Origin: Pseudoalteromonas sp. A25
GTDB taxonomy: Bacteria > Pseudomonadota > Gammaproteobacteria > Enterobacterales > Alteromonadaceae
Length of the DNA stretch: 64,000 nt
Direction: 5' to 3'
Assembly: GCF_009176705.1 (NCBI RefSeq)
Contig: NZ_AP021847.1
Coordinates: forward strand, 486,501-550,500
The notes under the pieces are model-generated. The model made no database searches. It was not told the origin of the DNA and saw only the letters and a list, made by a program, of their open reading frames with translations. Position numbers and translations under genes: made by a program. This document shows, piece by piece, positions 2,907 through 64,000 of this stretch; within the stretch, counting starts at the first letter, position 1, and the number at the start of each line of letters is the position of its first letter.

Positions 2907-5366
2907 TTATAGTGCTTGCCATACTAGTGCTTTGCCTGGTTCTTCACCACGCGTCCACCATTTAGCTCGATAGTTTTTGCCACCATAAACCACCGTATCA
3001 CCACCAACATACACCTTGTTGCGCTCCCATGTATCTACTGGACCGGCTTTATCTGTCACTGTTACTTGGAACGAGCGTGAAACACTTTCAGTGCCATCTG
3101 ATACTGATACTGACACTGTGTATGTTGTATCTTGTGATACCTCAGCCGCACTTAAACTAACACTAGCACCTGAGCCAGATACAGTTAGCCCTGCAGGCAC
3201 ATTCCACGTGTATGTTAACGCATCGTTGTCTGCATCTGTTGCGACTGCGCTTACGTTCACCGACGTGTTTTCTTCTAATGTAACATCAGCGATAGGCGCA
3301 AGCACCGGTGCACTGTTAGGCGATGTACTTACGGTTACAGTAACATCTTTAGACACTGACACAGTGCCATCTGATACCGTTACGGTAAGTGTATAATTTG
3401 CATCAGAAGTCAGTGTAGGTGCTGTTACAACTACACTCGCTGAGTTTGCATTTGCAAGGCTTAGCGATGCATCTGCACTCCAAGAGTAAGTAAGTGTGTC
3501 ACGATCTGCATCCGTTGCACTGGCAGTCACTGTTGCGGTACCGCCATTAGCAATCGTTACTTGGCTATCTACCGATACAACCGGCGCGCGATTTGGTGGT
3601 ACAGAACCTGCCAACCCTTCGTGCATCGCATTTAAGATATCACCGTTGTCAGCGTCTATTTCCCATGCGAACAAACCGCCTAGGTCGTTTACTTTTACGT
3701 AACCACCTTTCGCTTTTACTGAACGAGCGTTATCGAATGTTAGTAGTTTACCGTTACTACGGTTCCAAACATAAGCTGCTTCTGCTTGTTCATCGTATCC
3801 AGCTTCAAAACCGTTGATACCAGTACCGTTTGGCCCTAACAAGTTGGCTACAATCCCTTTGTAGTCCATGATACCAGGCTCCCAAACGCCCTCTGTTGTA
3901 GAACCTTTAAACTTACCGTTACCTGGTGCCGTCATTGGGTTTCCAGGAATGGTTGCGTTAGCTTCCATTACCCCTTCCCAGCCACGACCATACATCGCCG
4001 CACCAACGACTAGTTTCTTAGAGTCAACCCCTTGGGCAAGCAATAATTTAATCGCGTTGTCGGTACTGTATGCAGGACCTTTGCGTGGTTCGCCATTGTC
4101 ATCTACGCCCGTGCCGTTACATTCATCAACACTGATGTGTGAACCACAATATAGTGCTGTTTGATGGCCTGTCACATTGTTCCAACCACCAAAGAAGTCG
4201 TAAGTCATCGCGAAGATATAATCCATGTACTGCGAAGCCGCTTGATAGTCTACATCTTCAATCTTATCGTAACCGGTACCAATTGCTGAACTGAGCTCGT
4301 ACTCACGTCCCGTTTCTGCTTCAAGTTCATCAAGCATAGCGCGCAATTCTTGCATCAATGCAACATAAGCTGGACCATCGTTGACTGGATCACCTAAGTT
4401 ACCATTTGGACCGCCGCCACCAGGGAATTCCCAGTCAATATCTACGCCATCATAGAATTTCCATGTCTTTAAGAACTTTTTCATAGAGGCAACAAACGTG
4501 TCACGGTTCGCTTTCTCAGTAAACCCATGGAAAGGATCAGACAGCGTCCAGCCACCAACCGATGGGAGAATTTTAAGATCTGGGTAACGCTGCTTAAGTG
4601 CCATTAACTGCGCGTATGTACCACGGATAGGATCTTTAGAATCAACGCCTGGTAGCGCTTTTTGAATGGCAGCCCAAGGGTCATGAATTACTACTTCGTA
4701 ATCTGCAGAGCCAGCACACGCCTTTTGCAAAGCTCTCCAACTGTTACCATTTTCTATTTCTTTAAGAGACTCGTTTGGACCACAGATTGGAATAAAGCCA
4801 TAAAGTAAATGTGATAAGTTTTGCGCTGGGATCTTGGTAACATCAAAGTTACGCCCATAAATCCCCCACTCAACAAAGTATGCCCCCGTCACGTAATTCG
4901 GGTTAGTGCCATAGTTTTTGTTATTTGGGTTAACATTCATAGGAAGCGGCTCTAAATGACCACCATCGGTATCCGCAATAACAATGGCCTTGCCTGCGCT
5001 TCGTGCACATGTATCGCCTTCACACAGTTCAACATAAAGTGTGTGACGACCAGAACTTTCATAAGGAAATTCAATCACACCGCTTTTAGTACCCGCAGGT
5101 AAAGTGCCTTCATTAACTAACATATCGTCAAAATACACTTTATAGCCATCACCACCGTCGCCGCTCCATGCATTCCACTTGATGCTGATGTTTACTTGCT
5201 CTTTGGCGTTAACTAAATCTTTGTATGATCCCTGACCATCCAGATTAACCTCAACAAAAGAATACTGCTGAGCCTCCCAGCTTAAACTGGGTGTTGAAGG
5301 CGCTGCTATAACAGCACCCGACATCATCGCTAAGGCCACAGCGGCCGTTAAATGTTTTATTTTCAT
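2907..5366 (-). CDS. chiA: ChiA-type GH18 chitinase with two Ig/PKD-like domains and C-terminal CBM5/12
   Basis: A secreted endo/exo-chitinase of 819 aa. The start at 5366 was chosen because it gives MKIKHLTAAVALAMM, a proper signal peptide, with a gagaaag ribosome-binding site; an in-frame ATG 13 codons upstream lacks both. Order: signal peptide (1-21), ChiN-like beta domain (about 22-135), GH18 barrel (about 160-575) with DGVDIDWE at 306-313 and E313 as catalytic acid, two Ig/PKD/cadherin-like domains (about 590-770), and a terminal carbohydrate-binding module with the AKWWTRGEEPG aromatic motif. The stretches SLSWEAQ, VEWGIYGRNF, LTFDNARSV and GGLFAWEIDADNGDILN closely follow Serratia ChiA. 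It is the last gene of the operon and acts on insoluble chitin outside the cell. Confidence 0.95.
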   Translation of the reverse strand: MKIKHLTAAVALAMMSGAVIAAPSTPSLSWEAQQYSFVEVNLDGQGSYKDLVNAKEQVNISIKWNAWSGDGGDGYKVYFDDMLVNEGTLPAGTKSGVIEFPYESSGRHTLYVELCEGDTCARSAGKAIVIADTDGGHLEPLPMNVNPNNKNYGTNPNYVTGAYFVEWGIYGRNFDVTKIPAQNLSHLLYGFIPICGPNESLKEIENGNSWRALQKACAGSADYEVVIHDPWAAIQKALPGVDSKDPIRGTYAQLMALKQRYPDLKILPSVGGWTLSDPFHGFTEKANRDTFVASMKKFLKTWKFYDGVDIDWEFPGGGGPNGNLGDPVNDGPAYVALMQELRAMLDELEAETGREYELSSAIGTGYDKIEDVDYQAASQYMDYIFAMTYDFFGGWNNVTGHQTALYCGSHISVDECNGTGVDDNGEPRKGPAYSTDNAIKLLLAQGVDSKKLVVGAAMYGRGWEGVMEANATIPGNPMTAPGNGKFKGSTTEGVWEPGIMDYKGIVANLLGPNGTGINGFEAGYDEQAEAAYVWNRSNGKLLTFDNARSVKAKGGYVKVNDLGGLFAWEIDADNGDILNAMHEGLAGSVPPNRAPVVSVDSQVTIANGGTATVTASATDADRDTLTYSWSADASLSLANANSASVVVTAPTLTSDANYTLTVTVSDGTVSVSKDVTVTVSTSPNSAPVLAPIADVTLEENTSVNVSAVATDADNDALTYTWNVPAGLTVSGSGASVSLSAAEVSQDTTYTVSVSVSDGTESVSRSFQVTVTDKAGPVDTWERNKVYVGGDTVVYGGKNYRAKWWTRGEEPGKALVWQAL

Positions 5367-54707: not shown

Positions 54708-55184
54708 GTGATTACTAGAAAATTAAGGTTGCAAAGAGGCTGGTCTCAAGACCAACTGGCACAGTTAAGTGGCTTGAGCCTTAGAACAATCCAGCGCATT
54801 GAGCGCGGTCATACACCAAGCTTAGAGTCACTCAAGTCTTTAGCTGCTGTTTTTGAAACCACAGTCGCAGACCTTCAACAGGAGCTTAAAATGAAACCAC
54901 ACAACTCAGATATCAGTTTAACCGAACAAGAGCAAACAGTGATTGAACATGTTAAAGCCATTAGAGACTTTTACTCACACGCTTTAACCTATGCCATTAT
55001 CATTGTTTTCTTATTTATTCTTAACTACATAACTAACCCTGGTTATATTTGGGCTTGGTGGGCCGCACTTGGCTGGGGAATAGGTCTTGCCTCGCACGGG
55101 TTAAGTATTTTTGAGGTTTTTGACTTTTTTGGCCCCCGCTGGGAGAAAAAGCAAATTGAAAAACGCCTAGGTCGAAAACTCTAG
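54708..55184 (+). CDS. XRE-family HTH protein with C-terminal 2TM domain
   Basis: A protein of 158 aa. The XRE helix-turn-helix (about 2-58) reads LRLQRGWSQDQLAQLSGLSLRTIQRIERGHTPSLESLKSLAAVF. The C-terminal 2TM domain (about 78-158) has two membrane helices (TYAIIIVFLFILNY and WAWWAALGWGIGLASHGLSIF) framed by RDFYSHALTY and a basic tail WEKKQIEKRLGRKL. Such fusions are common in Gram-negative genomes and may act as membrane-tethered regulators. GTG start, aaagga 8 bases upstream. It is the last gene before the RADAR-type operon; a link is not shown. Confidence 0.88.
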   Translation: MITRKLRLQRGWSQDQLAQLSGLSLRTIQRIERGHTPSLESLKSLAAVFETTVADLQQELKMKPHNSDISLTEQEQTVIEHVKAIRDFYSHALTYAIIIVFLFILNYITNPGYIWAWWAALGWGIGLASHGLSIFEVFDFFGPRWEKKQIEKRLGRKL

Positions 55185-55957
55185 TAGTGCAAACACTTCC
55201 TAAAATGCCTAGCAGGGGGAGCTAAGCTCCCCCAATTTAAAAGTACTTTTCCCAATGCAAAACCATTCATATTGCTTCTGTAATAACCACTCAGGATAGT
55301 CAGTTTCAATATTAGAAAATGTACAGAGTTATCGGTTCTGTCATTTATTGCCATCATCGTACCTGTATTATCAACACTGACACTAAGATAACCCATAACA
55401 TTTATACAACACGCTTTTTTATGGCTTTTTAGCATGTCTGTCTGCTTATTTATTATCTACTTTAGCCTTTTTATACATGATTTTTTTGCCGCCAAGCCGG
55501 CCTTTATCGGGCTTGTTATTAGCATCACCTTATGTGTTATTAATTCCTCTAATTGGGTTTATTTTTGGGCTATTCAGTGTGGTGCAAAATATGTGGCAGT
55601 AAGATATTTTGTCACATAACGTCAGCTTACATAGTGTGAAGGGTTTTATTAAGAGGATGTAAAACGAGTTGAAAACCCCCTTAAATGTATAAATAGTGAG
55701 GCTCATATCTACAGCCTGCTTGCTGTATGCTCGTACAATCGAACTCAAGCAAACTCTTTTTATTGCAATAAATTATTCTATTAAATAATATGTTACTGAT
55801 TTGTTGTAATATAACTGTCGGCAGGATAAAGCTTTAATACTCTTGGCAAACTTGAGTTATGTCTCGCGCCTTTTTGTAGAGCGCCCTCTTTTACCTAGCA
55901 CACCACTTGTATAACCAGATCACTTCTTACATTTAACAAGGCTATTCGGTATAGACT
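55185..55957. other. Intergenic region upstream of the RADAR-type operon
   Basis: About 770 bases. A strong hairpin (55215-55233) ends the XRE gene. Between about 55391 and 55602 one plus-strand frame encodes a hydrophobic peptide (LLLASPYVLLIPLIGFIFG near its end) without a start near the beginning, possibly a remnant of a membrane-protein gene. 55620-55957 is AT-rich and probably contains the operon promoter. Confidence 0.45.
55215..55233 (+). terminator. Terminator-like hairpin after the XRE gene
   Basis: The arms gggggagc (55215-55222) and gctccccc (55226-55233) enclose a 3-nt loop, followed by aatttaaaag. Strong stem, weak T run. Confidence 0.65.
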
Positions 55958-56773
55958 ATGGACAAGCATTACACAGCGTTGCAAACAGACTTTGGCGATC
56001 TCGTTAAAGAAGCCTATTGCTTGCTCACTCAACGCGCTCAAGATTACAAACCACTACATAAACTGTCACGCAGGTCAGCAGCTGCAGCGAGCATTTTCGT
56101 TCTTATCAGTGCATGCTATCTCTTAGCCGGTCTCTCCTTATTTAAATCTACCCCTATTGCAGACATAAAAGCACTAGGTGACATAGTCATTTTTGATGTT
56201 GGTGATAGTGCGCAGCTAGAAACCTTATGCTGGAGTTTCAAGCTGTTTTTAGCCTATCTTTTGATAAACCTAATATTCGCTTTCATAAGAATGAAAACGA
56301 ATAAACTGTGTTCATGTAAGCAAAGTAAAAAAGACGAAGATGATAAGAACAAAGGTTCAGAAAAAACTCTAAGTGAAAATATAAAGTGCAAAATATTTAG
56401 CATACTTTATGAACAAACCTATCGTATCTATTTCTTGATTGTCTCATCGGGCATCAGCGCATTGCTGTTTTTTGAGTGGCAACAGTTAATGCCTGTGTTT
56501 TTTGCTGTAGGCTTAATTATTTTTATTCTATCTTATTCAATTAATCGCAAGTTTGGTTACACACGCGCATGGTCTAGAAACAGACTATATGCAGAAAAAA
56601 TACGCATTATTGATGCGCGCTATAAGTCTGGGATAATTTTTAGAGATAAAGCGCATGAAGACTTACTCAAACTGTTAGAACAGTACGAAGAACAAACCCA
56701 TCAAGATACCGTTAATGACTATATCAGCTATGGAAATTCAGCATTGAACACATTAAAAGGACTGAGGAAGTAA
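55958..56773 (+). CDS. RADAR-associated membrane protein (SLATT-like or novel accessory)
   Basis: A protein of 271 aa and first gene of the operon. About four hydrophobic segments (41-62, 89-111, 156-172, 177-195). Between the second and third lies a charged cytoplasmic-looking loop (113-140) beginning with C118-x-C120. A helical C-terminal part (200-271) contains YTRAWSRNRLYAEKIR and a long amphipathic helix. Published RADAR loci sometimes include a small membrane protein of the SLATT or Csx27 type. This one is similar in position and helical layout but longer and with more membrane segments, so the family is uncertain. Only a weak ribosome-binding site. Its stop is 3 bases before the ATPase start. 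Likely role: membrane effector or signal partner of the ATPase/deaminase complex (inference). Confidence 0.6.
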   Translation: MDKHYTALQTDFGDLVKEAYCLLTQRAQDYKPLHKLSRRSAAAASIFVLISACYLLAGLSLFKSTPIADIKALGDIVIFDVGDSAQLETLCWSFKLFLAYLLINLIFAFIRMKTNKLCSCKQSKKDEDDKNKGSEKTLSENIKCKIFSILYEQTYRIYFLIVSSGISALLFFEWQQLMPVFFAVGLIIFILSYSINRKFGYTRAWSRNRLYAEKIRIIDARYKSGIIFRDKAHEDLLKLLEQYEEQTHQDTVNDYISYGNSALNTLKGLRK

Positions 56774-56776
56774 TCA

Positions 56777-59518
56777 ATGAGCCAAACACATATATTAAAC
56801 TTGGATAAAAATGAGTTCAGAGACGACTTCATTGGTAAAGATAATCTGAATGAGCTGTGGCAAGACGAAGCACGCGAAGGGCTGATTAGCCGCTTACAGA
56901 CCTGTCTAGCTGAAGCCAAGCATTATGCGAAAAGTAGAGCCGACAATCCACATAAAACATGGCTCTCTCACAACGCCATTTTAGTATCGGGGCAACGCGG
57001 TACGGGTAAAACGGTGTTTTTAAGAAACAGCGAAGCTATATGGAAAAATGCCAGTCAGCAATCAGACAACAATAAAAGCGCACTGTATTTTTTAGATGTA
57101 ATTGACCCCACCATGCTCGTCAACGACGACTCTTTTGCCAATGTCATCGTAGCGCAAATATACAGCGAAATAGAAAAGCATATGTTACATCTTGCCCATG
57201 TAAGTGGCTCAAGCTCTAAACAAGCGGATAAAAACAAATTTACTCAAGCATTAAAAAAGCTTGCTGATTCTTTAGGTAAGTCCAGCGAGTTTAACGGCCA
57301 CACGGGTATCGATAAAGTTCAACACTATAAGTCGGGCATACATATCGAGTCTTATTTTCACGAGTTCGTTGAAATATCGATAAAAATTTTAGGCTGCAAC
57401 GCGCTTGTGCTGCCCATTGATGATGTGGATATGGCGTTAGATCGTGCCTTTGAAGTAGTCGATGATGTGAGAAGGTTATTGGGTTGCCCTTATATAATCC
57501 CAATTGTCAGTGGCGATATGCGCTTGTATGAGCATATGACTCAAGTCCACTTTGATGACAAGGCCTATAAAAAACATCGCCATAATCCTGCGCTCATCAA
57601 CGAGGGTAAGGCAGTCACCAAAGAACTCACAACCGCATACCTTACCAAAGTTTTTCCAAACCAAATGCGGCTATCACTGCTACCCATTAGCCGCTTGGTT
57701 AATAGCCTTGAGATCACCCAAAAAGTGGGCAATAAATCTTTGGGGTATCCTATCAAAGAGTATGATAAGTTATTGTTTCAAGCCTTCTACCCACTTTGCC
57801 ATAACAACGAAGTGCTACAAAACTGGCCTGAGCCAGAATCATCACGTGAACTGGTTCAGTTAGCACGGGCTATTCCCCCCAGCCATATAGATACCTCTCT
57901 AAGCGAAAAAAATGTACCTCAACCCGATAGTAAGACACTATGGGAAAGCTATGCTAGCTGGGCAGAACAAAAGAAAAATGGCGTTGCCTACACCAACGCA
58001 GCCTCGTATCTAACACTTGTAAATAGAAACACAGAGCAGCCATTTGATATTCAAAAATTACTTTCTTTTAACCCCAAAATGCAAATGGACAAAGAGCTAT
58101 ATCCTTGGGCAAGAGTTGCTTTTTACAAGCAACAGACTGCCGAAATGGCCAAAATTGAAAGCGAAAAGGATCGCACTAATAATAGAGATATACTCGATTC
58201 GGTATTTAACGCTCAATCTTTGACTTTGCGCAGCATGCCACCTTTGGAGTTTTTTGACTTCAAATTATTCATCAGTAACAAAACTATCGACAATACACCA
58301 AAAACCTTTCTACAAGACGATCAAACTGGGCTTTCAAGTAGCGTAAGAGATAGGGTGTCAACTGAACAACTGCTCTTGGATATATTTACCCACAAAGACT
58401 TCTATTCCACCATGTCTAACACCTACCGGTTTGTGTTTATGAGCCGTGCCTTTGAGATTATTGCCTACTCATTTTTGTCGCCCACTGCGGACCATAAACA
58501 GTTGGCCGACAATATAATGGCTATCCTGAGCCGAGCACCGTTTTATTCTATCTTTAATATGAATATGACTAAAGCAGTGTTTAATGATGACGATGATGCT
58601 GAAACAGAAGAGTTAGAGCATAATAACTCTACACAAGCGTCTACGGCAGCCGAATTGAGTAATCGTATTGCTAATTGGCACATTAATAATAAAACGTTGT
58701 TTGAACAAATAGATACACGCAAGCTCACTGAGCTTTTAGCGTATATGTTTAATAAAACATTCACTGCCTTCAACTTATTTAAGTATCAAAGACTATTAAA
58801 AACAGAAGAGCGTCGGAGTCTATTTAAAAAAAACCAAGGCTATAAAGACGAACACCTATCGGATCTTGTCACGCGATTTAACTATATGTTACTCAACTCC
58901 GCTTACAGTGCAGGAGTACAAGGTGAAGCAATAGCCGCCAATGTCGCTATGACGGACAACTACACCACTATTCGGGACAATTCAGAATTTGAACGCTTCG
59001 ACCGTACATTAATGCGGAATAGAGCATTTTTGGAAGAACAATCCAAAAGTTCTGATTTAACAGCAGGTGATACACCTTCGCTAACGCTTGCATTCTGCCA
59101 AGCCCTCGAACAACACCCAATTATAAAGTTGAATCATTTAGATAAGGGTAAGACCCTAATGCTGGGTAAGTACAAAGAAACTGCTGTAGCTATAAATGAC
59201 GCTATTTTTGGACAACTGCCTCAAAGTGCCCCAACAGTCGTTTTAAGCGAAGAGATCGATGATAAAATTTATACTACTCTTGTAGAGCTTCTTGCTCTGT
59301 ATCATATGGATGAACAAACAAGAGCCAGTACCGCAAGATTGCGCAACTGGCTAACTCAAAATACGGATAATATAATTAAGCGCTCTTCAGCCTTCAAATG
59401 GTTATTTCAATACCCTAAAGAAATTTTGCAGCAATTTAAAGAAAATAGAGGGCTAAATGCACAATCTGATGAAGGAAAGGTACTTTCTGCGCTCATCGTT
59501 TCGGGGCTTTTTAAGTGA
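56777..59518 (+). CDS. rdrA: RADAR ATPase subunit (RdrA-like)
   Basis: A protein of 913 aa. Walker A GQRGTGKT at 72-79; Walker B with VLPIDDVDMAL at 211-221 (D215, D216); a sensor-like strand IIPIVSGDMRLYEHM at 240-254. A large helical C-terminal region (about 400-913) has no recognised enzyme motif. The size, P-loop near the N-terminus and position just before an adenosine-deaminase-fold gene match RdrA, the ATPase that forms a ring and assembles with RdrB in the RADAR anti-phage system. gaggaag ribosome-binding site; the last four bases overlap the next gene (GTGA). An alternative label is KAP/STAND-like ATPase of a defence locus, but the pairing supports RdrA. Confidence 0.85.
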   Translation: MSQTHILNLDKNEFRDDFIGKDNLNELWQDEAREGLISRLQTCLAEAKHYAKSRADNPHKTWLSHNAILVSGQRGTGKTVFLRNSEAIWKNASQQSDNNKSALYFLDVIDPTMLVNDDSFANVIVAQIYSEIEKHMLHLAHVSGSSSKQADKNKFTQALKKLADSLGKSSEFNGHTGIDKVQHYKSGIHIESYFHEFVEISIKILGCNALVLPIDDVDMALDRAFEVVDDVRRLLGCPYIIPIVSGDMRLYEHMTQVHFDDKAYKKHRHNPALINEGKAVTKELTTAYLTKVFPNQMRLSLLPISRLVNSLEITQKVGNKSLGYPIKEYDKLLFQAFYPLCHNNEVLQNWPEPESSRELVQLARAIPPSHIDTSLSEKNVPQPDSKTLWESYASWAEQKKNGVAYTNAASYLTLVNRNTEQPFDIQKLLSFNPKMQMDKELYPWARVAFYKQQTAEMAKIESEKDRTNNRDILDSVFNAQSLTLRSMPPLEFFDFKLFISNKTIDNTPKTFLQDDQTGLSSSVRDRVSTEQLLLDIFTHKDFYSTMSNTYRFVFMSRAFEIIAYSFLSPTADHKQLADNIMAILSRAPFYSIFNMNMTKAVFNDDDDAETEELEHNNSTQASTAAELSNRIANWHINNKTLFEQIDTRKLTELLAYMFNKTFTAFNLFKYQRLLKTEERRSLFKKNQGYKDEHLSDLVTRFNYMLLNSAYSAGVQGEAIAANVAMTDNYTTIRDNSEFERFDRTLMRNRAFLEEQSKSSDLTAGDTPSLTLAFCQALEQHPIIKLNHLDKGKTLMLGKYKETAVAINDAIFGQLPQSAPTVVLSEEIDDKIYTTLVELLALYHMDEQTRASTARLRNWLTQNTDNIIKRSSAFKWLFQYPKEILQQFKENRGLNAQSDEGKVLSALIVSGLFK

Positions 59519-62034
59519 TCTGTACATCAGACAAATCGGTTGTTGCAGCCGCGCTACTTACATCAGATCGCTTGCTCAAAACCGCAGACAATTTAGAGCA
59601 AGTGCTAACGCGTTCTGAAGCGCCCGAGCATAACGCCAGTTTTATCAACGCCGTTGAAGACTATCAAAAGTATGTGAGCCATACGCTGCGTACTGACGAT
59701 ATACGCCATATGCTCACACTACACGGCACTTCAGATATTGATGGGGACCCTGAACAGTTACTGAGCAAACTGGCCGACTATTATTTGCAGTGGCAAGGCA
59801 ATAGCTTTGAGGTCAAACCCAAAAAGCTCGATCAATGGTTAGAGTTACTTAGTTTAATTGACCCTAGTTGGGTTGTTGCCCAAGCCTATAAGGATATTAC
59901 ATCGCAACACGGGGTGAGTTATCTAGATGTCATCAATGCCATTGTTAACGAGCAATGCCCGTTTGCCCTGCCTAATGACAGGTTCGGTCGAGGCTATGCA
60001 GATAACCATGTACATTTAGGAGGACATGGTTACATAGGCCCTTCGCTGCTCAGCTTTGCCCTATACGGAGAACAACTTGATGATGCCATCGTTTGGCCAA
60101 GGCGCAGTGAGTATACCCAGTTTGAAAGTGGAGTGTATAAAAAACAAAGTTTACCTATTTGGTGCCATTATTTAGGGTGCAAGCTGATTGAACGCACGTT
60201 CAATGTCAGCGACAAACCATTTATTCCTTTTAGCTCAGAAGAAGCAAAGAAAGCTGAGCATAATATCCTAGTTTACCTCAATGAAGATGAAGCACAGCTA
60301 CCATCGCAGCCCTACTTTGTTGCTGCACATAACCGTTCGGCCCCTTCAGCAAAAAGGTGGCTACTGTATTGTTTAGGCATATTAAGCACTCATAGCAATC
60401 TTAACTTACTAAAAAGCCAATTTATTCGCACCAGTAATATTTTAAGAAACTACATGGTGGTTTCTGGTGTAGGGCTAAGCCAATTTGTGAACCATTCACG
60501 CTTCAAAGCCAGAGACGTGAGAGCACTCAAACACCAAACTAACAGTGCGCTTGATGCGCTAAACGCCGATATGCACCAGAATTACCGCGAATTTAGGGCT
60601 ACTTCTAAGGTGTTACTTGGCAGCGAGTGCTTTCCAAGCAACCCAGATACATTAGCTAAAGTGCTAAATGGACTATACAAAATCAGTCTCGCCGAACGGG
60701 TACACTTTGTTTTACACTTTACCCGCTCTGGAGAGCGTAGCGACAAGTACCAAGAAGGTTTCAGGAAAAGACTCAAACAACAAGTCAATATGCTACAAGA
60801 ATTTGCTTGTTCAACCACGTTTTCAGAAGTAGAAAGTAACAAAAGCGGGCTTTCCAAAGCTCAGAGTGAGTTAACCTTTGATTTGCGCAAAGCCATTCGT
60901 GGTTTTGATGTCGCAGGCGATGAAAATCAGCTCCCCATTGAAGTTTTTGCACCTGCCCTTCGGGTACTACGCGAAGCTAAGTATAGCTCTAAAGGTATGT
61001 TTTCTAACCGTATGCAACGACCCTTCTTAACTGTTCACGCGGGTGAAGATTTCAGCCACTTACTCAGCGGATTACGTGCTATTGATGAAGCCGTCTACTT
61101 TTGTGACTACCAAGCGGGTGATAGGCTAGGCCATGCATTAGCCTTAGGCGTCTTACCCAAAAAATGGGCAAAGCGTCAACGTGTTGCTTACCTGACATTA
61201 GATGAGCACCTAGATAATCTAGTATGGTGTTATCAAAAAGCACTAGAAGTCGTACAGCAGGTACCACAGTTTACCGGCGTGCTACAGTTACTGAACGAAA
61301 AAATTCAATATTGGTCGTCACTTCTGCATGGGCAAGAATATACCTGCCGAACACTGTATGAAGCATGGAAACTGCGTAAAAATTGCCCTTTAGCTGTGAG
61401 CAATAAGAATCTTATGGGACCCGGTTGGGCGATTGATTTTGATGAAAATAAGCCATCAAACACGTCTAATAAGGCATTTGAGCTTTGGAAACAGTACACG
61501 GATAATAGTTTATTATCAGACAATAATCAAAAATCTGTCATGATCCACTGTATTCCTAAACAAGGTGAAGAGCCGTTTGGCACAGAGCAAGGAATGTATT
61601 TTGATTCTATTTCTGCTGCAGAGCTTGAGCTGTACGAAGCCATTCAAGATTTACAGATGGAAAAGTATGCCGCTCAAGAGATAATTATTGAAGCATGCCC
61701 AACCTCCAACGTTTATATTGGTCGTTTTAAACATCATCGCGAGCACCCTATTTTTCGCTGGGATCCTCCTGAACAAGAATGGATCAAGGTGGGTGAAAAA
61801 TTCAATCAGTTTGGTCTTCGAAAAGGCGCAGTTGCCGTGTGTGTTAACACCGATGATTCTGCCCTGATGCCAACCACTATTCAAAACGAACATCGTATAT
61901 TACAGCAATCGGCAATTGAATATTATGATGTGGGTGTCAACAAGGCTGAAATTTGGATAGAGCGGATACGTAAAAAAGGCATAGATGTATATAAGAGTAA
62001 CCATTTAGACTGGGTAAACAATAAATTAAGTTAG
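59515..62034 (+). CDS. rdrB: RADAR adenosine-deaminase-fold subunit (RdrB-like)
   Basis: A protein of 839 aa, much longer than housekeeping adenosine deaminases. Zinc site: H165-x-H167 in YADNHVHLGGHG; H508 and catalytic-type E511 in TVHAGEDFSHL; H540 in DRLGHALALG; D780-D781 in VCVNTDDSALM. CPTSNVYIG is another amidohydrolase/ADA block. About 150 residues precede the barrel, and a large insertion (about 230-490) lies between the first and second metal motifs. All metal ligands are present, so deaminase activity is expected (adenosine/ATP or RNA, as reported for RADAR). GTG start overlapping the rdrA stop (GTGA), which indicates translational coupling and fits a fixed-ratio complex. Confidence 0.88.
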   Translation: MICTSDKSVVAAALLTSDRLLKTADNLEQVLTRSEAPEHNASFINAVEDYQKYVSHTLRTDDIRHMLTLHGTSDIDGDPEQLLSKLADYYLQWQGNSFEVKPKKLDQWLELLSLIDPSWVVAQAYKDITSQHGVSYLDVINAIVNEQCPFALPNDRFGRGYADNHVHLGGHGYIGPSLLSFALYGEQLDDAIVWPRRSEYTQFESGVYKKQSLPIWCHYLGCKLIERTFNVSDKPFIPFSSEEAKKAEHNILVYLNEDEAQLPSQPYFVAAHNRSAPSAKRWLLYCLGILSTHSNLNLLKSQFIRTSNILRNYMVVSGVGLSQFVNHSRFKARDVRALKHQTNSALDALNADMHQNYREFRATSKVLLGSECFPSNPDTLAKVLNGLYKISLAERVHFVLHFTRSGERSDKYQEGFRKRLKQQVNMLQEFACSTTFSEVESNKSGLSKAQSELTFDLRKAIRGFDVAGDENQLPIEVFAPALRVLREAKYSSKGMFSNRMQRPFLTVHAGEDFSHLLSGLRAIDEAVYFCDYQAGDRLGHALALGVLPKKWAKRQRVAYLTLDEHLDNLVWCYQKALEVVQQVPQFTGVLQLLNEKIQYWSSLLHGQEYTCRTLYEAWKLRKNCPLAVSNKNLMGPGWAIDFDENKPSNTSNKAFELWKQYTDNSLLSDNNQKSVMIHCIPKQGEEPFGTEQGMYFDSISAAELELYEAIQDLQMEKYAAQEIIIEACPTSNVYIGRFKHHREHPIFRWDPPEQEWIKVGEKFNQFGLRKGAVAVCVNTDDSALMPTTIQNEHRILQQSAIEYYDVGVNKAEIWIERIRKKGIDVYKSNHLDWVNNKLS

Positions 62035-62065
62035 TTTAAGGGGTTAGTATAACCCCTTGGTAAAC
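62034..62065 (+). terminator. Hairpin after the RADAR-type operon
   Basis: The perfect 9-bp arms aaggggtta (62038-62046) and taacccctt (62050-62058) enclose a 3-nt loop, extended by gttta and taaac outside a mismatch. It directly follows the rdrB stop. No T run, so function as a terminator is probable but not certain. Confidence 0.55.
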
Positions 62066-62147
62066 AGATCTAAGCTCTGTTGTTACTCGCAAACCATACA
62101 AACTCAGCTAGACTAAAATAAGTCGTAACTAGCAGTAAGCAATATTG

Positions 62148-64000
62148 ATGAAAGAGTGTATTTGGCTGTTTCTTTCCCTCTCAATTTTTCTATGTACTTC
62201 AATAAATGCACAACTGCCCGATGAAGAGTTCAGTCAATTACGCACACAAGTAAGTAAAGCGGGCGGTCAATCGCCTTTAGCTGGCATTGACCAAGCTGAA
62301 ACAATAATTAACGAGTACAGTCAAAAACTTGCTAACTTTCAAACCATTCGATTGCTGTATCTCAAAGCATGGTATCAAATTAATGCAGACCGACTAGACG
62401 CGGCCATGGATACCCTTGCTCAGGCGCGCTTAATGGCACGAGATATTGATGAGCCAGGCATTTTATATAGTTATTATAGTATCTCCGCCAGTGCCTTTTC
62501 TAATGCCGAGCTTTATGATTTAGCTTTAAAAAGTAACTTAAAAGCATATCAAGAAGCGCCCCTATTAAACCGCCCTCAATTTATTGCCCAAACAGAAAAC
62601 AATATCGGTCACGTATACTTAAAATTAGGTCTGCTTGACGAGGCTGAAAATTACTTTCAACGTTTTTATAACTCGGCGGTTGAATTAAACTTGGCATCTC
62701 AAAAATCTACTGGATTAAACAACTTAGGCGAAGTTTCTTATTTACAAGGAAAGCTTGAAAAGGCGAAAAAGTTGCATCAAGAAGCACTTGAGATCCGCAG
62801 AGCAAATGGTTACGACTACCATTTGTCTTGGTCACTGTATAATTTAGGCCGAGTTTATGCCAGTGAAGGAGATTTTCGCCAAGCTGAACAATATTTAAAA
62901 GAAGCCATCACAAACTGGCAAAATAAAAGTGCCCATTCAAAAACCGATAAACCACTATTAGCGCTTGTGGACCTTTACCTTAAACAAGGAAGGCTAGATG
63001 AAGCACAAGCAAAAATAACGCAAGTCATCGAACTTGCACAGCAACACAAGCATTCCAGCTCGTTGCAAAAAGCATTAAAACTTAAAAGTGAACTCAAACG
63101 ACAATCAGGAGAACTTGATCAAGCTTTGCAAGCCCTAGAACAATACCACGCAGTCTATGAAGCGTTCAGCAAAAAACAAGCTTCTATTGGGCTTGCATAT
63201 ATCGTTTCGCAAACAGAGCTGCAAACCAAGGAAATGGCTTTAAAACAACTTGAGCAAACACACCAAATAACACTTGCCAAGGCCGAGTCAGAGCGCCGGC
63301 AAGGTTGGATTATAATGTTCAGCGCACTCACTATCATCCTAGTAACATGGGGCTTTGTGTACCGTCTGAATAAAAAAAGAAGACAACTTCAAGCATTGCT
63401 AACACAACTTACAAACACCCAAGAAAAGCTCGTTGAGTCTGAAAAAATGCGTGCCATGACCACACTTGTATCTGGTATGGCTCATCAACTAAATACGCCA
63501 CTTGGATTGGTTATTACCGCTGATTCAAGCTTACAATCGCTGGTAGAAAAACTCGCTAAGCAGTTTTCTAGTCAATCCTTAACACAAAAATTGTTAGCGC
63601 AATTCATCGATGAAGCAACGGAACTGTTAGCACTGAGCCAAAAGAATAGTGAAAAAGCCGCAAATATGGTGCAACGCTTTAAAATGATGTCAGCCAAATT
63701 ACAGATCAGTGAGCTAGGTAGCTTCTGTATATTGAGTTTTTTACAGAGCCACACAAAAACTTTAATTACCACTCAAACTAAATCGATAGACCTACATTTA
63801 GATGGAGAAAATATTGAGATAACTAACTATGCCCCCCTGTTACTCAAAGTGATCGCACAACTAATTGAAAACTCCGTAAAGCATGGCTTTACAAATACAG
63901 ACAAGCCCAAAGTGGATATTTTTGTTGAACACGACACAACCGATCATGTGCTCATTCATTACAAAGATAATGGCTCTGGAGTTGCAATAGAAAAACGCAA
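62148..64000 (+). CDS. TPR-containing sensor histidine kinase (3' end outside window)
   Basis: The frame is open from the ATG at 62148 to the window edge (617 codons visible). A signal peptide (about 1-21) is followed by tetratricopeptide repeats (about 55-330; for example NNIGHVYLKLGLLDEAENYF and YNLGRVYASEGDFRQAEQYLKEA). A coiled coil leads to one membrane helix (about 386-404), then a cytoplasmic kinase core with the H box MAHQLNTPLGL and N box QLIENSVKHGF, and DNGSG at the edge. The TPR part should be periplasmic and may sense a peptide or protein. Whether it has a receiver domain cannot be seen. Not evidently part of the RADAR operon. Confidence 0.88.
   Translation, partial: MKECIWLFLSLSIFLCTSINAQLPDEEFSQLRTQVSKAGGQSPLAGIDQAETIINEYSQKLANFQTIRLLYLKAWYQINADRLDAAMDTLAQARLMARDIDEPGILYSYYSISASAFSNAELYDLALKSNLKAYQEAPLLNRPQFIAQTENNIGHVYLKLGLLDEAENYFQRFYNSAVELNLASQKSTGLNNLGEVSYLQGKLEKAKKLHQEALEIRRANGYDYHLSWSLYNLGRVYASEGDFRQAEQYLKEAITNWQNKSAHSKTDKPLLALVDLYLKQGRLDEAQAKITQVIELAQQHKHSSSLQKALKLKSELKRQSGELDQALQALEQYHAVYEAFSKKQASIGLAYIVSQTELQTKEMALKQLEQTHQITLAKAESERRQGWIIMFSALTIILVTWGFVYRLNKKRRQLQALLTQLTNTQEKLVESEKMRAMTTLVSGMAHQLNTPLGLVITADSSLQSLVEKLAKQFSSQSLTQKLLAQFIDEATELLALSQKNSEKAANMVQRFKMMSAKLQISELGSFCILSFLQSHTKTLITTQTKSIDLHLDGENIEITNYAPLLLKVIAQLIENSVKHGFTNTDKPKVDIFVEHDTTDHVLIHYKDNGSGVAIEKR

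Follow-up and report, generated by a model that had tools for sequence, protein, structure and literature searches.

Do three adjoining genes in a 64,000-nucleotide stretch of bacterial DNA (the window) form a genuine RADAR anti-phage system, and what might the membrane protein encoded at their head contribute to it? We conclude with high confidence, from the genes alone, that positions 55958-62034 encode a complete RADAR in the order RdrD-RdrA-RdrB. The system is already known, and the RADAR found here is a genuine one; what we add are small points, namely a branch of RdrD-first operons that present models miss, a split of the two gene arrangements between clades, and a map of constraint. The host can be assigned to Pseudoalteromonas from the named nearest relatives of its RdrB (Pseudoalteromonas caenipelagi, 90%; P. 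byunsanensis, 72%; P. peptidolytica, 71%); its genome comprises two contigs, 4.74 Mb in total, of which C2 (851 kb) contains the window. The operon is made up as follows:

55958..56773, plus strand: rdrD-like accessory gene, first of the operon; membrane protein of 271 amino acids (aa), ATG start
56777..59518, plus strand: rdrA, P-loop ATPase of 913 aa, ATG start
59515..62034, plus strand: rdrB, adenosine-deaminase-family enzyme of 839 aa, GTG start

An earlier note on this DNA had described a tightly coupled three-gene operon on the plus strand, which the open reading frames (ORFs) and the sequence confirm: 3 bases separate the rdrD-like gene from rdrA, and rdrA and rdrB overlap by 4 bases, GTGA, the GTG start of rdrB lying over the TGA stop of rdrA. 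The motifs it had quoted are likewise all present, GQRGTGKT and DDVD in the ATPase and HVHLG, HAGED, DRLGH and NTDDS in the deaminase.

The ATPase and the deaminase

Both enzymes exceed the curated cut-offs of the NCBIfam RADAR families. RdrA scores 760.1 bits against NF041743 (cut-off 600, E 2.8e-228), its residues 9-782 covering positions 1-742 of the profile, and is matched by the PADLOC RdrA model at 662 bits; RdrB scores 990.1 bits against NF041744 (cut-off 800, E 1.2e-297, residues 30-830 covering profile positions 17-850), is matched by the PADLOC RdrB model at 814 bits, and matches Pfam A_deaminase above threshold. The Walker A motif of RdrA (GQRGTGKT, residue 72) and its Walker B motif (DDVD, residue 215) are retained with small variations in 16 aligned RdrA sequences, window included; in L034 and L036 the first G is replaced by S. 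In RdrB, HVHLG (H165, H167) is followed by HAGED at 508-512, DRLGH at 536-540 and NTDDS at 778-782, an order which is that of the genome's own ordinary adenosine deaminase (ADA), encoded separately on contig C1. When 19 of the genus's 21 RdrBs were aligned, the window's among them (L029 and L035 were left out), no variation was seen at H165, H167, H508, E511, H540, D780 or D781.

The two proteins also occur together. A search of 108 genomes from the genus matched RdrA in 21 and RdrB also in 21 (18 over the RdrB cut-off), the two sets of genomes coinciding; this pairing and the scores over the curated cut-offs uphold the RADAR identity proposed in the earlier note. In 20 of these genomes rdrA and rdrB stand side by side with nothing between; in the exception, G301, the recognised piece of RdrA stops 2.2 kb before RdrB, with two ORFs between. 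In G301 and in G295 (loci L040 and L039) RdrA is broken into separate frames with other ORFs between them, and the RdrB and RdrD frames are long; these two copies are likely inactivated. In the wider order an RdrB-like match was found in 7 of 295 genomes, among plasmid records in 7 of 72,556 (2 of them over at least 80% of the query), and among phage records in none.

The solved E. coli RADAR (PDB 8fnv, 8fnw, 8hr7 and others) also combines a P-loop ATPase, RdrA, with a deaminase-family protein, RdrB, but belongs to a branch distant from the window's operon. When searched with phmmer against the solved structures (E <= 0.001), RdrA matches only chains of RADAR entries (8fnt, 8fnv, 8fnw, 8hr7 and others), and so does RdrB; a profile built from the 19-row RdrB alignment lifts the match to the solved RdrB to 186 bits. 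Of three RdrBs of the genus compared with the solved chains, that of G306 (L043) gives 293 bits, that of L041 84 and the window's 73. The RADAR of L043 is thus the nearest of the three to the solved E. coli type; its RdrA has 1137 aa and its RdrD comes last. An AlphaFold model of the window's RdrB (mean predicted local distance difference test score, pLDDT, 75.7) was submitted to Foldseek, and the best match is E. coli RdrB in 8fnv (E 6.7e-22, probability 1.00, template-modelling scores 0.61/0.66); the top eight matches are chains of 8fnv and 8hr7, and ordinary adenosine deaminases appear in the list with E >= 1.2e-3.

In a quick RdrB tree of 57 rows, built without bootstraps and rooted on the genome's own ADA, the window is sister to G244 (L024) with a support of 100 in the Shimodaira-Hasegawa-like approximate likelihood ratio test (SH-aLRT), and lies inside a clade of 30 rows with an SH-aLRT of 96. 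Long-branch warnings were raised for L043, L093, L110, ADA and others, and none for the window's row. The tree omits named loci duplicating genomes of the genus, L126 and the near-copy L129, as well as L095, L105, L109, L114, L115, L121, L122 and L127, in which the RdrB frame is shorter than 700 aa or RdrA is out of reach. Two of the latter, L121 and L122 (metagenome-assembled genomes of Gastranaerophilales and Clostridia), encode very divergent RdrB-like proteins after ORFs of 861 and 916 aa that the RdrA profile does not recognise; they possibly represent a distant RADAR-like lineage.

The profile and structure search that the earlier note had suggested for both proteins thus places them over the RdrA and RdrB cut-offs, and the fold of RdrB finds 8fnv first. 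The deaminase falls within the RdrB clade of the tree, and its predicted fold matches the solved RdrB before all others.

In the known RADAR systems, RdrA reacts to infection by a phage and, with ATP, activates or feeds a giant RdrB assembly; RdrB converts adenine to hypoxanthine by deamination, in RNA and/or in the pool of (d)ATP, and growth stops before phage release. There, RdrA rings and RdrB shells form a giant complex, as the titles of the solved entries also indicate. On the model of this family, infection of the window's host would lead RdrA, with ATP, to activate or feed RdrB, which would deaminate adenine in RNA and/or (d)ATP, the cell halting before phage release.

The membrane protein and its place in the operon

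The first protein of the operon is, by profile comparison, a divergent RdrD homologue and not an equivalog of NF041745. We give it this label because its profile matches that of RdrD-last proteins, i.e. those encoded after rdrA and rdrB, while the NF041745 cut-off is missed. An hhalign comparison of 5 RdrD-first with 6 RdrD-last rows, the latter including WP_338928731.1, annotated rdrD in an E. coli record, yields a probability of 97.3 and an E of 2e-11 over 209 columns, with the common stretch NRKFGYTRAWSR / DRTLGLTRQNER; BLASTP of an RdrD-first/RdrD-last pair gives E 2e-6 over 77 columns. The window's operon, which passes NF041743 and NF041744, has an accessory far below NF041745, and this behaviour is shared: when 11 proteins were scanned singly, the cut-off was passed by two of three RdrD-last proteins (L041 with 280 bits and L113 with 287; L043 has no match) and by none of eight RdrD-first ones, window included. 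The NF041745 model matches 7 of 19 rows of the genus at E <= 0.01.

The accessory gene had been called unusual in the earlier note, a view that is not borne out: 19 of the genus's 21 RADAR loci have a member of the RdrD family next to rdrA/rdrB, upstream in 16 and downstream in 3. The exceptions are L037, without RdrD, and L042, cut by a contig end, whose genome has a match at the edge of another contig. With a combined RdrD profile all 31 matches in the searched loci adjoin rdrA or rdrB; 24 of them are training rows and 7 are not, 3 of those 7 being weak. In L082 (Shewanella sairae) a 237-aa ORF directly 5' of rdrA (3574-4287), with no predicted transmembrane segment and no RdrD match, occupies the place that RdrD has in related loci.

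Four hydrophobic segments can be read by eye in the window's protein, at about 42-64, 89-113, 153-172 and 176-196; a simple count of such segments gives 3 in its three nearest relatives (L071, L072, L079) and 4 in many others. Its structure model consists of long helices (mean pLDDT 74.7).

On the RdrB tree, RdrD-first and RdrD-last operons fall into separate clades, a small point that is new here. The label "RdrD upstream" (19 tree rows) is found only in the window's 30-row clade, where RdrD was not found in another 9 rows and 2 rows were not scored; the label "RdrD downstream" (11 rows, three of which, L098, L099 and L118, rest on weak matches of hidden Markov models with E 3e-4 to 1.2e-3) is found only outside it. 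On the tree the labels need 8 changes, versus 23.3 in shuffles. E. coli AR_0128 (L125) and the Aliivibrio salmonicida plasmid pVSAL840 (L128), both with annotated rdrA and rdrB, belong to the window's clade; unlike in the window, rdrD is neither annotated nor detected alongside. We also considered that RdrD-less RADARs could carry membrane segments inside RdrA instead, and rejected it: the hydropathy-positive stretch is mostly the Walker B/core-strand region. In 19 loci a stretch of RdrA exceeds the hydropathy threshold; it falls within residues 180-250 in 12 of them, RdrD-positive loci included, and at 540-620 in most of the others, which are relatives outside the window's clade.

Compared with G244, the ratio of nonsynonymous to synonymous substitution rates (dN/dS) is 0.10 for RdrA, 0.09 for RdrB and 0.19 for RdrD; by these ratios all three are under purifying selection. 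Within RdrD the constraint is uneven: residues 201-271 are 96% identical to those of G244, with a ratio of nonsynonymous to synonymous differences per site (pN/pS) of 0.04, versus 43% and 0.53 for residues 1-30, and 36% and 0.58, with a large change in length, for residues 76-150. This pattern is repeated against G305 and G333, so that in the sequences compared the C-terminal 71 residues are strongly constrained and the N-terminus and middle loop vary. In RdrA the most variable part is the last 123 residues (75%, 38% and 26% identity in three pairs), and in RdrB the least variable is the catalytic block 461-600 (98%, 92% and 93%). Positive selection on RdrD was considered and rejected: no region in any of the three pairs reaches a pN/pS of 1, the largest value being 0.88 against G333, with synonymous sites near saturation against both G305 and G333. 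In the absence of a region with pN/pS above 1, these values map constraint and do not demonstrate positive selection; the fast change in parts of RdrD could be relaxed constraint.

Judging by anatomy, RdrD might anchor the complex to the inner membrane or gate it there. RdrA/RdrB would be contacted by the conserved helices that follow its hydrophobic segments at the C-terminus, and the fast-changing N-terminus and middle loop would either face variable partners or lack constraint. One may go further and propose that RdrD-first RADARs are a distinct membrane-tethered form, whose C-terminal helices dock RdrA-RdrB while the variable parts sense phage signals, trigger specificity thus residing in RdrD and not in RdrA. 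We regard this proposal as rather unlikely. If true, the N-terminus and middle loop of RdrD would read membrane or protein signals caused by phages, and the proposal would explain why RdrD keeps a single place, first or last, in each of the two RdrB clades.

Points against the reading and alternatives

Several points weigh against a complete RADAR. The likeness to the solved E. coli system is weak: by phmmer RdrA gives about 69 bits over residues 63-309 only, and the 73 bits or so of RdrB come with partial coverage, so that any statement on assembly and substrate has to be carried over a deep split. The accessory protein scores 39.5 bits against NF041745 (E 5.2e-10), where the cut-off is 230, and has no PADLOC match; a fold search with its model returned no match at E <= 0.001 and no convincing solved relative. 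As a single sequence it reaches 15 of the 108 genomes of the genus (E <= 0.001), the rest of the 19 RdrDs being found by lower-scoring matches among the genes next to rdrA/rdrB, with E up to 0.003, and the family profile that supports these remaining copies was trained on them. Finally, the RADAR genes are less constrained than a flanking transporter gene, whose dN/dS is 0.03.

We find quite improbable a RADAR-like system whose deaminase acts on a substrate other than those known for RADAR, or whose accessory turns it into a membrane-damaging effector system and not a deaminase defence. Two observations could speak for it. In the structural alignment the window's RdrB is only about 16% identical to the solved RdrB. 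The C-terminal half of RdrD weakly resembles SLATT-domain proteins, below all curated cut-offs: SLATT_1 (NF033634) gives 16.8 bits (E 0.0049, cut-off 41), and DUF4231, which we take to be a SLATT-linked Pfam family, E 0.12. In other systems SLATT proteins count as membrane effectors; RdrD differs from them by its three to four hydrophobic segments, versus two, and by a variable charged middle loop. On the other hand, the active-site motifs of RdrB are those of the adenosine deaminase family and are invariant in the 19 aligned rows; and RdrD, which went undetected in 9 rows of the window's 30-row clade, is unlikely to be the main weapon since it is sometimes missing.

That the operon is a degenerate or inactive RADAR, chance-kept remnants no longer defending the cell, seems highly improbable. 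Broken copies do occur in relatives (RdrA split in G295 and G301, RdrB in an E. coli record), and the dN/dS of the RADAR genes, 0.09-0.19, exceeds that of the transporter; but in the window all three frames are intact, the catalytic residues are conserved and dN/dS against G244 is far below 1. That a KAP- or STAND-type ATPase and a metabolic adenosine deaminase stand together here without being related in function is hardly conceivable: in Pfam the ATPase matches NPHP3_N, AAA_16 and NACHT weakly and each below its cut-off, whereas the RdrA and RdrB equivalog scores, the RdrB tree and the RdrB fold match already contradict such a pairing, and the co-occurrence in the same 21 of 108 genomes and the separate ADA on contig C1 speak against it. 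As to a plain KAP protein, a possibility named in the earlier note, the ATPase exceeds the curated RdrA cut-off and KAP is not among its Pfam matches at E <= 1.

Insertion site and upstream region

Around the complete RADAR of the window, the following features were delimited:

55187..62085, no strand assigned: inserted cassette, its extent given by DNA alignment to the empty site of the sister genome G314 (L132)
54708-55184: gene for a helix-turn-helix (HTH) plus 2TM-domain protein, adjoining RADAR in the window's genome and in G305
62145-64000, running past the window's end: TPR-repeat histidine-kinase gene (688 aa), directly downstream and outside the cassette
55754..55923, plus strand: stretch conserved ahead of the operon and probably its promoter/operator region; the palindrome TTTATTGCAATAAA occupies 55759-55772

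The alignment with G314 stops at 55186 and resumes at 62086, 68 nucleotides of G314 replacing about 6.9 kb; in that genome the HTH-2TM gene lies next to the TPR histidine kinase. This 68-nucleotide empty site fits the arrival of RADAR as horizontal defence cargo. In G305 RADAR follows an orthologue of the HTH-2TM gene, with a different gene downstream, and an imperfect direct repeat of 95 nucleotides (76%) lies on both sides of the copy (L025/L133); in G370 the interval is empty, and in G244 the upstream neighbours are the same, yet the HTH-2TM gene and the kinase do not adjoin the operon. The 18 kb surrounding the window's copy contain no tRNA that we could find; no search for integrases was made. 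Since pVSAL840, a plasmid typed as conjugative, carries a RADAR, relatives of the system can travel. The HTH-2TM gene was considered as a RADAR component and rejected: it adjoins the empty site of G314 and is present in G370 and G296, which are RADAR-less. The site beside it is possibly an insertion hotspot.

The stretch 55754-55923 is a probable promoter/operator region of the operon, a candidate drawn from conservation. In its best piece it is 92% identical to G244 over 171 columns, compared with 86.5% for the 5.6-kb piece spanning rdrA and rdrB, and TTGCAATAAAT is kept in the alignment with G305; its predicted RNA folding is no better than that of shuffles (z -0.44).

The window thus holds a complete RADAR that, as its genes suggest, probably works; its marine genus has the system in 21 of 108 searched genomes, and its branch is far from the RADAR structures in the PDB. 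For the RdrD membrane protein, whose role is to our knowledge still to be settled, this branch offers a natural comparison: an RdrD-first form that present family models miss and that joins a strongly conserved C-terminal part to a variable loop. Modelling the family of RdrD-first proteins would let annotation pipelines see three-gene RADAR operons, which are many in this branch.

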